From assembly GCA_024278215.1 (NCBI GenBank), contig JAJRTR010000167.1, forward strand, positions 1 through 43,396: a DNA stretch of 43,396 nt. Reading direction: 5' to 3'. A program made the position numbers and the translations under genes. The DNA comes from a bacterium (GTDB lineage Bacteria > UBP15 > UBA6099 > JAJRTR01). The notes beneath the pieces were generated by a model. The model saw only the letters and a list, made by a program, of their open reading frames with translations. It made no database searches and had not been told where the DNA came from. Shown in pieces: positions 5,456 through 41,733 of this stretch; position 1 is the stretch's first letter, and every line of letters starts with the position of its first letter.

Positions 5456-5634
5456 GAGCCAGTTGCAAAATTATGTTCGAAGCGAGGTCGAGCAAAATTG
5501 GTCGGAAGCAAGGCGGAGGTGCAAAATCCCCGCAGGCGTACTTGTAGAGTACGTCGAGTATGATTTTGTGCCGACAACGCAACTGTTGCCAATTGCAGCC
5601 GACCGTAGCCTAATCAGAATTTTGCAATTGGCTC
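5456..5634 (+). repeat. Fold-back repeat, copy 1 (full length)
   Basis: This 179-bp imperfect palindrome starts GAGCCAGTTGCAAAATT and ends AATTTTGCAATTGGCTC. Its centre is a small hairpin, CGTACT-tgtag-AGTACG. Inner arm segments also pair, for example GCAAAATC with GATTTTGTGC. It fills the gap between the NHL protein gene and the next exported protein gene. The same element recurs at 7857, 20049, 28593, 36600 and, inverted, at 41556. Confidence 0.9.
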
Positions 5635-7856: not shown

Positions 7857-8034
7857 GAGCCAATTGCAAAATTATGTTCGTAGCGATGTCGAGCGAAATT
7901 GTTCAGAGCAAGGCAGAGATGTAACATCCCCGCAGGCGTACTTGTAAAGCATGTCGAGGACGATTTCGCGCCGACAACGCAGCTATGGACAATAGCAGCC
8001 GACCTCAGCAAAATCATAATTTTGCAATTGGCTC
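7857..8034 (+). repeat. Fold-back repeat, copy 2 (full length)
   Basis: This is a 178-bp copy with intact ends (GAGCCAATTGCAAAATTATG and AATTTTGCAATTGGCTC), lying between two convergent genes. It is very similar to the inverted copy at 41556-41733. The arms pair, for example ATTGTTCAGAGC near the 5' side with GCTATGGACAAT near the 3' side. The central hairpin is partly decayed. Confidence 0.9.
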
Positions 8035-20048: not shown

Positions 20049-20224
20049 GAGCCAATTGCAAAATTACGTTTGTGACGAGTCCGAACGATATTATTCCGAG
20101 CAAGGCAGAGACGCGAAATCCCCGCAGGCGTACTATATAGTACGTCGAGGACGGTTTCGCGCCGATAACGCGGCTCGGAGCAATTGCAGCCGGAAGCAGT
20201 AGAACTGAATTTTTCAATTGGCTC
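20049..20224 (+). repeat. Fold-back repeat, copy 3, inside the efflux operon
   Basis: This 176-bp copy has its two arms co-varied relative to other copies: CGCGAAAT pairs with GTTTCGCG, and CCGAGC with GCTCGG. Direct repeats ATTC (20045-20048 and 20225-20228) flank it. It lies between the TolC and fusion-protein genes, 64 bases before the latter's ATG, and its last bases overlap the TolC TGA at 20223-20225. Confidence 0.9.
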
Positions 20225-22835: not shown

Positions 22836-22940
22836 TGAAAAATCCGGGTAAGCAGACGTACTCGCAGAGATTTCGCGGCGGCAACGCAGCTCCGGACAAT
22901 TGCAGCCAACCGCAGTAGAACAGCCTTTTGCAAACGGCTC
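22836..22940 (+). repeat. Fold-back repeat, 3'-half fragment
   Basis: From about AAAAATCC onward the sequence follows the full-length repeat: GCAGACGTACTCG, then GGCAACGCAGCTCCGGACAA, then TTGCAGCC, ending GCAAACGGCTC. The 5' arm is missing. Confidence 0.75.
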
Positions 22941-24423: not shown

Positions 24424-24495
24424 GAGCCAACTGCGAAATTACTTATTTTAGCCAACTGCGAAATTCAGTTCTACTACTTCCGGCTGCAATTGCTC
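24424..24495 (-). repeat. Fold-back repeat, internally deleted copy
   Basis: Starting GAGCCAACTGCGAAATT, the end sequence is repeated once (AGCCAACTGCGAAATTCAG). It then continues as TTCTACTACTTCCGGCTGC and ATTGCTC, which is the reverse complement of the 3' end of copy 3. The rest is deleted. It directly abuts the 142-bp element at 24503. Confidence 0.7.
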
Positions 24496-24502
24496 ATTTA
24501 TT

Positions 24503-24644
24503 TGATTCGTGTGTAATAAGTCATTTTCAAAACAATGTTTTTGTCAAAGTCGGTCAGGATGCTTTAAAATGCTGAACGAACGTTCGTTATAGTCGATCAT
24601 TGTTGGTTGACATTTGTCATCTCCGACTTATTACACACGAATCA
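24503..24644. mobile_element. 142-bp MITE-like element with terminal inverted repeats
   Basis: The ends are perfect 20-bp inverted repeats: TGATTCGTGTGTAATAAGTC at 24503-24522 and its complement at 24625-24644. The 6-bp sequence TTTATT flanks both sides (24497-24502 and 24645-24650), as expected for a target-site duplication. There is no coding capacity inside. The right end supplies the TGA stop (24642-24644) of the sodium symporter gene. A promoter-like TTGTCA/TAAAAT pair and the palindrome AACGAACGTTCGTT lie inside. Confidence 0.7.
24541..24588 (+). promoter_or_regulatory. Promoter-like sequence and TetR-type palindrome inside the 142-bp element
   Basis: TTGTCA (24541-24546) and TAAAAT (24565-24570) are 18 bp apart. 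The perfect palindrome AACGAACGTTCGTT (24575-24588) resembles operators of TetR/AcrR repressors. No plus-strand gene follows, so what it would control is unclear. Confidence 0.45.
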
Positions 24645-26312
24645 TTTATTTATGTCTTTCTTAGTTTTATTGCCCGACGAAGCCGCGATGGAAAGGCACC
24701 AGGCCAGACCTCCGAAGAGTACGGTCGAAGCCAGGATAAGCATCGCCACGGCGTTGGGCGGCAGATTTATTTTTACGCCTGTGCCGATCCAATATGTCAT
24801 GCCGGCGAATACAGCAATAAGAGCACCGGCGGTCAGTGCCCTGGCAATCCATCGCATATCCTTTGCCAGCAGGACGCCGAACCCGGTCAGCAGCAGTATC
24901 AGCCCCCAGCCACCTGCGAACTGCGCCCAGGCAGGGTAGCCCTCGTAAGCACTGTTGAGGGCCAGGTATGCGGAGCGCATAAACATGAAAACCAGCACTC
25001 CCGGTGTAATATACATGATGCAGACGTCCCACCAGTAACCGATCTTTATTTCACTGGTCTTGTTCACGTGTTCGCGCACCTTGCGCGCGCCGAGCACATA
25101 ACCGATTATGATGCACTCCAGCAACCCTATCATCGTAAGCCCGAAACTCGTGAGGTAGTGATCGACAATGTCCAGCCAGTAGAGGCCGCCCTTCGTGGCA
25201 TAGACGACACCAATCAGAAATGCGATAAAAGAAACGCCGGCGTTGACCGCGACACGGGGGAACTTCCATTTATCTATGATGCCCGCCACACCGGCCTCGA
25301 CCAGCGAGAATGCCGAGTCGATGCCCAGCGTCAGGAGCAGAATGAAAAACAAGACCCCGAACACCTGCGGCGCCAGGGGAAGATTGTTTATGATCGTCGG
25401 ATAAGTGACAAAAGCCAGTCCGGGGCCGCTTGCAACGACACTTTCGACAGGCTGCCCCTGTTGAACCGCGAGAAAACCAAGTGTCGAAAACACAGCGAGA
25501 CCCGCGAGAAAACTTATCCCGGCATCGGCAAAACTTGTGATGAAGGCATTATTTGTGATGTCGCTGTCTTCAGGCAGATAACTGGCATAAGCGATCATTA
25601 CACCGAATCCGATGGACAGCGAGAAAAACACCTGTCCGTATGCGGCAAGCCACACGGCGGGGTCTTTGAGAACATTGAAATCGGGTGTGAGAAAATACTG
25701 AAGGCCCTCCGCCGCGCCGGGAAGCGTGACGCCCCGCACTACAAAAAGTATCAGGATAATTACCGGCAGCGGCACAGTGTACATAACGACTTTGCCGACC
25801 GATTTCACACCTTTGTAGATACACAGAAAAACAAAGAGCCAGCACAGGAACAGCCCCAGCACGATGTGCCATACCGGCGGCCCGATTTCGCCTATCCCTC
25901 CCGAAAGCTGGAGTACGTTCTTGAAGAAGAAAGCGTTCGTATCCTGCCCCCAGCCGAGTGTGAATGAATGGTAAAGGAAATTGAAACACCAGCCCATCAC
26001 CACACCGTAATAAGTCATCACGATGAGACCGACAATCACTGACACCCAGCCGATCCATTCATACTGTTTGCGTATCTTCGCAAAGGCCGCGGGCGCTGCA
26101 AGCTGCGCCCTGTGGCCGAGTCCGAACTCGAGGATCAGCAGCGGCACTCCCGCGGTGAACAGCGCAATAAGATATGGAATAAGGAACGCTCCGCCACCGT
26201 TTTTATAGCAGACGTAAGGGAACCTCCAGATATTGCCGAGTCCGACCGCCGACCCGACCGCCGCCATGACAAAAGCCATCCGGCTATCCCAGAAACCGCG
26301 CGTTTTCTCCAT
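24642..26312 (-). CDS. Neurotransmitter:sodium symporter-family transporter
   Basis: The 556-residue protein has about 11-12 hydrophobic segments. The NSS/SNF signature is near the N-terminus: WDSRMAFVMAAVGSAVGLGNIWRFPYVCYKNGGGAFLIPYLIALF (unwound TM1 and TM2), with GPGLAFVTYPTIINNLP further on. Bacterial members such as LeuT and TnaT couple sodium to uptake of amino acids or related amines; the substrate here is unknown. The ATG at 26312 is chosen because AAGGAG precedes it. The last residues (DINK) and the stop codon fall in the flank and right end of the MITE-like element, so the original C-terminus was probably altered by the insertion. Confidence 0.92.
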   Translation of the reverse strand: MEKTRGFWDSRMAFVMAAVGSAVGLGNIWRFPYVCYKNGGGAFLIPYLIALFTAGVPLLILEFGLGHRAQLAAPAAFAKIRKQYEWIGWVSVIVGLIVMTYYGVVMGWCFNFLYHSFTLGWGQDTNAFFFKNVLQLSGGIGEIGPPVWHIVLGLFLCWLFVFLCIYKGVKSVGKVVMYTVPLPVIILILFVVRGVTLPGAAEGLQYFLTPDFNVLKDPAVWLAAYGQVFFSLSIGFGVMIAYASYLPEDSDITNNAFITSFADAGISFLAGLAVFSTLGFLAVQQGQPVESVVASGPGLAFVTYPTIINNLPLAPQVFGVLFFILLLTLGIDSAFSLVEAGVAGIIDKWKFPRVAVNAGVSFIAFLIGVVYATKGGLYWLDIVDHYLTSFGLTMIGLLECIIIGYVLGARKVREHVNKTSEIKIGYWWDVCIMYITPGVLVFMFMRSAYLALNSAYEGYPAWAQFAGGWGLILLLTGFGVLLAKDMRWIARALTAGALIAVFAGMTYWIGTGVKINLPPNAVAMLILASTVLFGGLAWCLSIAASSGNKTKKDINK

Positions 26313-36599: not shown

Positions 36600-36778
36600 G
36601 AGCCAATTGCAAAATTATGTTCGAAGCGAGGTCGAACGAAATTCTCCAAAAGCAAGGCGGAGGTGCAAAATTCCCGCAGACGTACTTGCAGAGTACGTCG
36701 AGGAAGATTTTGCGCCGACAACGCAGCTGTTGGCAATTGCAGCCGACCGCAGCCGAATCAGAATTTTGCAATTGGCTC
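36600..36778 (+). repeat. Fold-back repeat, copy 7 (full length)
   Basis: This 179-bp copy has intact ends and the central hairpin CGTACT-tgcag-AGTACG. GCAAAATT pairs with GATTTTGC, where copy 3 has CGCGAAAT and GTTTCGCG. It lies in the divergent gap between the solute-binding and DUF115 genes. Confidence 0.9.
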
Positions 36779-41555: not shown

Positions 41556-41733
41556 GAGCCATTTGCAAAATTATGATTCTGCTGCGGTCGGCTGCTATTG
41601 TCCATAGTTGCGTTGTCGGTGCAAAATCGTCCTCGACGTACTCTACAAGTACGCCTGCGAGGATTTTACACCTCCGCCTTGCTCTGAACAATTTCGCTCG
41701 ACCTCGCTACGAACATAATTTTGCAATTGGCTC
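41556..41733 (-). repeat. Fold-back repeat, copy 8 (full length, inverted)
   Basis: This 178-bp copy lies in the opposite orientation to the others; its reverse complement is nearly identical to copy 2 (7857-8034). Direct repeats ATTA (41552-41555 and 41734-41737) flank it. It sits after the TIM-barrel gene. Confidence 0.9.

Follow-up and report, generated by a model that had tools for sequence, protein, structure and literature searches.

The closest described systems are two sets of MITEs related to the IS1182 family of insertion sequences (IS). The MITE of ISMac2 (IS1182 family) in Methanosarcina acetivorans is 160 bp long and present in 14 copies, with inverted repeats of 26 bp and direct repeats of 4 bp (PMC3852290, Table 4). 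MITEPye1 of Paracoccus yeei is non-coding and intergenic, carries 18-bp terminal inverted repeats (TIRs) similar to those of IS1182-family ISs as well as direct repeats, and has a long hairpin; it occurs in 1-3 chromosomal copies only, and its hosts carry intact IS1182 elements (PMC11578231). Regarding target sites within the family, 4-bp duplications are on record for ISPse1 (PMC3281130), and IS1272 is reported to choose unusual, palindromic targets and to replace stem-loops without target-site duplications (TSDs) (PMC5678879).

The element described here lies in a stretch of bacterial DNA of 43,396 nucleotides, analysed as a whole and hereafter called the window. Judged from its sequence and that of its relatives, it is a MITE, and one that was very probably moved in trans by an IS1182-like transposase acting at its 20-bp ends. 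Likened by description, the ISMac2 MITE has nearly the same anatomy and an IS1182-family mover, in an archaeal host, unlike the present bacterial one. MITEPye1, likened in the same way, is also non-coding and intergenic, with IS1182-type TIRs, direct repeats and a hairpin, but it differs in its 1-3 chromosomal copies (about 40 copies here) and in the intact IS1182 elements of its hosts. In contrast to IS1272, the present family has clear TSDs. It is filed as a new family of MITEs of an IS1182-like element, IS1182-derived MITEs as such being already published. What it contributes is good documentation of an IS1182-type MITE family in an uncultured lineage, a phylum for which 7 genomes were available, and a sharply defined site rule, read off 27 insertions.

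Features of the element

Positions 24497-24650 of the window comprise the 142-bp element and both of its TTTATT duplications. The features are as follows.

24503-24644: element, 142 bp, with perfect 20-bp TIRs and without a gene
24497-24502: left target-site duplication TTTATT, with A at 24496 (part of TCA) before it
24503-24522, forward strand: left terminal inverted repeat TGATTCGTGTGTAATAAGTC (sequence, inverted-repeat match)
24523-24624: core, non-coding, subfamily A (copy comparison)
24625-24644, reverse strand: right terminal inverted repeat, perfect (sequence, inverted-repeat match)
24645-24650: right target-site duplication TTTATT, with T after it
24642-24644, reverse strand: terminal TGA of the element, serving as stop codon of the right-hand gene (flank joining, gene caller)
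24642-26312, reverse strand: gene of about 556 aa, whose stop is the terminal TGA of the element at 24644-24642 (ORF list, gene caller)

An earlier note on this DNA had described a non-coding, MITE-like element of 142 bp bounded by perfect 20-bp inverted repeats and flanked by TTTATT, and this description proved exact in each of these respects. The TIR arms (20 nt, 100% complementary) are spaced 102 nt apart, a perfect 20-bp pair at such spacing having a chance expectation of about 7e-6 per window (43 kb x ~180 spacings / 4^20, own arithmetic), and the ORF list contains no ORF of at least 80 aa confined to the element. Formally, the direct repeat at this copy measures 10 nt (TCATTTATTT, 24494-24503 and 24642-24651), because the element's own ends, TGA...TCA, continue the target sequence.

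A fragment of another palindromic repeat (24450-24492) directly adjoins the element. This repeat, some 176-179 bp long and bounded by GAGCCAATTGCAAAATTATG, is probably the 'first' MITE of the earlier note; it has five copies in the window (5456-5634, 7857-8034, 20049-20224, 36600-36778 and 41556-41733), is also present on contigs C188 and C151, and has a further fragment at 22897-22939.

Copies and subfamilies

When the 20-bp end was searched with up to 3 mismatches in the 4.55-Mb genome of the window, which is fragmented into 207 contigs, 75 matches were obtained, as against 0 with the reversed pattern as control. The ends are thus not unique in the genome, uniqueness being what the earlier note had named as contrary to its reading; about 40 short, dispersed copies with TIRs and differing TSDs occupy different places on more than 30 contigs, which is in line with a MITE. 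They fall into two main subfamilies with different cores. Subfamily A comprises 17 full-length copies at 90-100% identity (BLAST), and subfamily B about 20 copies at ~68-77% identity (BLAST), with the ends of A and another core, some of them cut by contig ends. In reverse orientation, the A and B cores are related lengthwise (local score 34 versus a shuffled mean of 16; 0 of 500 shuffles). Small divergent families with related ends also occur, namely D (TIR TGATTCCGGCGCAAAAAGTC, 104-142 bp) and another on C84, which is related to B. The copies closest to that of the window (C144) are those on C179 and C141, which are 99% identical to it; an identity of at least 99% among the three points to fairly recent movement.

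Neither element nor TIR was found in six relatives of the order and phylum (those compared belonging to other families of the same order), nor in plasmids, other genome contigs or viral contigs. Single TIR matches with 3 mismatches in two relatives were no more than the reversed control yields. No strain with an empty site could be shown. As far as can be seen, the expansion of the family is confined to the lineage of the window.

Target sites

Flanks were read for 37 TIR pairs, 36 of MITE length and the intact IS of a relative (see below); two of the 37 are not single elements, one being a secondary pairing (locus L018) and the other a pair spanning a nested element (L069). An exact direct repeat of 4-6 bp was found in 27 of the 37 pairs, with a length of 4 bp in 18 (the TSD of the IS1182 family being about 4 bp), 5 bp in 7 and 6 bp in 2; the repeats differ between copies, as independent insertions would leave them. 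The exact TSD follows an A in 25/27 and precedes a T in 26/27, a rule to which the window copy conforms (A-TTTATT-T). The 6-bp TSD given in the earlier note is correct for the window copy and has to be widened for the family as a whole to any length of 4-6 bp inside an A...T site.

As the first base of the element is T and its last is A, two readings are possible: either 4-6 bp enclosed by a fixed A and T are duplicated, or the duplication takes in this A and T (A...T, 6-8 bp) and the element is slightly shorter. The 4-6 bp duplication is preferred, because the copy on C134, with ATATT flanked by C and G, is compatible with no other reading. A palindromic (stem-loop) target of the IS1272 kind was considered and rejected, the bases at -2 and +2 being unpaired across copies and the A...T rule alone being kept.

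Candidate mover

A search of the phylum with D-type ends led, by way of a pair 1.8 kb apart, to an intact IS of 1813 bp in G005, a genome of the same order (G005:C186:1622-3434 = L136:1023-2835; JAKQPS010000132.1, uncultured bacterium). It has TGATTC... ends (TIR TGATTCCGGCGCAAAAA) and a 561-aa transposase frame. Against Pfam, the transposase matches DDE_Tnp_1_6 (9e-20), DUF772 and DDE_Tnp_1, all above cut-off; the best NCBIfam model is IS1182 (6e-56), at 190 bits, which is under the curated cut-off of 270. The IS resembles the family of the window in its ends, in its A-N5-T site (5-bp TSD AACAT in the context A-AACAT-T, i.e., the same site rule) and in a transposase of the type found as remnants in the window's own genome. 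Its TIR differs from the A-type TIR at several inner positions, with the inner bases CGGCGC instead of GTGTGT, and its closest MITEs are those of the small D family, not those of the window's family.

The genome of the window holds three decayed remnants of an IS1182-like transposase, on C9, C62 and C188. On C9, a left TIR TGATTCGTGTATGAAAAGTC lies 184 bp ahead of a C-terminal remnant (38% identity), the whole being what is left of an IS after deletion of most of its gene. C62 carries a C-terminal remnant (59%) and, 300 bp on, a right TIR TGATTCGTATGTAATAAGAG, with a D-type MITE between the two; the remnant on C188 is without an end. TIR-like sites number 84 in the 4.55 Mb, so that chance would place a TIR no further than 300 bp from any one remnant about 0.01 times (own arithmetic). 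Two of the three remnants lie beside a MITE-type TIR (about 300 bp or less), which is far beyond chance and argues that the MITE ends belong to an IS1182-like element. The cores of MITEs A and B showed no significant homology to the remnant IS ends, so that it is the TIR, the site rule and the co-location that link MITE and mover. The D-type MITE on C62 (104 bp, L083:1868-1971) is nested within the decayed IS1182-like element.

As to the IS with the same ends for which the earlier note had suggested a search, decayed IS1182-like pieces were found beside such ends, as was an intact IS of a relative with closely related ends, but the assembled genome of the window contains no intact autonomous IS with the exact MITE ends. 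Movement in trans, also proposed in that note, is for this reason something we infer, with an IS1182-like element as the mover. The DDE transposase of such an IS would cut or copy the element via its 20-bp ends and would insert it at A-N(4-6)-T, duplicating the 4-6 bases between; in an equivalent form, in which the outer T and A are assigned to the target, A-N(4-6)-T would be duplicated whole. In this genome the source IS may have decayed, or it may have been missed by assembly or binning.

Lone ends on C9, C44 and C112 were also considered as a third MITE family. They are mutually alike and that on C9 continues into the transposase remnant, so they are read as left ends of the decayed IS, which fits better. 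In G006, a further MAG of the order, several fragments of the transposase stand at contig ends, and contigs C143, C231, C232, C348, C413, C476, C513 and C535 end in copies of the IS1182-like IS end; this suggests an active IS, present in multiple copies, at which the assembly broke.

Gene context and stop codons

Gene context was taken from a simple dicodon gene caller trained on the genome of the window, the calls of which are approximate. No gene contains any of the 34 copies examined, and at least five of the 34 (on C57, C144, C4, C83 and C84, C144 being the window) sit exactly at a gene stop, where the gene reads into the element and ends at its terminal TGA. In three of these copies, which have exact duplications, joining of the flanks places the original stop (TGA, TAG and TAG) directly after the duplication, so that the protein is unchanged in those three; at the window locus, the joined flanks give TGA as the original stop. 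The same holds for the ends of the decayed IS on C9 and C112, where frames of 992 and 414 codons end at the TGA.

The five stop-codon insertions among 34 copies compare with about 0.9 expected (P = 0.002, post hoc), and if the IS ends on C9 and C112 are counted, the figure is 7/36 (P = 4e-5, likewise post hoc). For the null, every site that spares genes was weighted according to the flank preference observed, and equal tolerance of all intergenic sites was assumed. Given the post hoc test, the approximate gene calls and this assumption, the stop-codon excess is a lead and not a result. It is tentatively conceivable, if rather unlikely, that the full site is YA-N(4-6)-TR, that the end TGA mirrors the target flank, and that gene-sparing, stop-favouring insertion enabled a high copy number in a dense genome. 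On this reading, with the end TGA reproducing the target flank, a stop would be swapped for the TGA of the element with the protein unchanged. If the preference holds, it would show how a transposon can, by simple means, spread and leave genes intact.

Alternative explanations

The alternative that fares best, improbable as it is, takes the element for a functional repeat (a hairpin terminator, an RNA-processing site or a protein-binding site) that was spread and kept by selection. It would account for the perfect 20-bp stem and for the RNA fold of the element, a long terminal stem with a z-score of -5.9, and the 34 of 34 copies outside genes, several of them at or just past a stop codon, are in line with it; such placement is, however, expected anyway from selection against gene disruption, whereas the TSDs and the site rule indicate spread by transposition. 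An Rfam search of the element matched no family, and the core palindrome AACGAACGTTCGTT of the window copy is absent in most copies, for which reason it was rejected as an operator. The repeat may still have acquired a role later.

A little less probable again is a MITE with a mover of another family (e.g., IS4/IS1634-type), the ends of which would have converged on TGATTC. Three PF01609 transposases are indeed present in the genome of the window, and the MITE core is without a match to the IS1182-like remnants; yet the longest of the three (C200) has unrelated ends (CCGTTCAGTTAAG), the two partial ones have no matching end, and it is the IS1182-like remnants that adjoin ends of the fitting type. 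A chance inverted repeat or an assembly artefact, in favour of which only the fragmentation of the genome can be named, has a negligible probability and is already refuted by the copy count (75 TIR matches versus 0 in the reversed control), the copies moreover sitting in unique flanks with their own TSDs.

The three IS4-type (PF01609) transposases were rejected as movers on account of their mismatching ends. One IS4-type IS, roughly 1.5 kb long and bounded by CCAATACCGTTCAGTTAAGC, was seen at L091 (G000:C200, ~27 kb). A short element with the same ends on C160 (L080, from ~1901) seems to be the IS4-type IS's own MITE, inserted next to or within one of the ends of the present family. Small palindromes like CCGCATATTTCACAAATGCGGG, perhaps a REP-like repeat, occur in or beside MITE ends at L025 near 1640 (C77) and at L080 near 2020 (C160).
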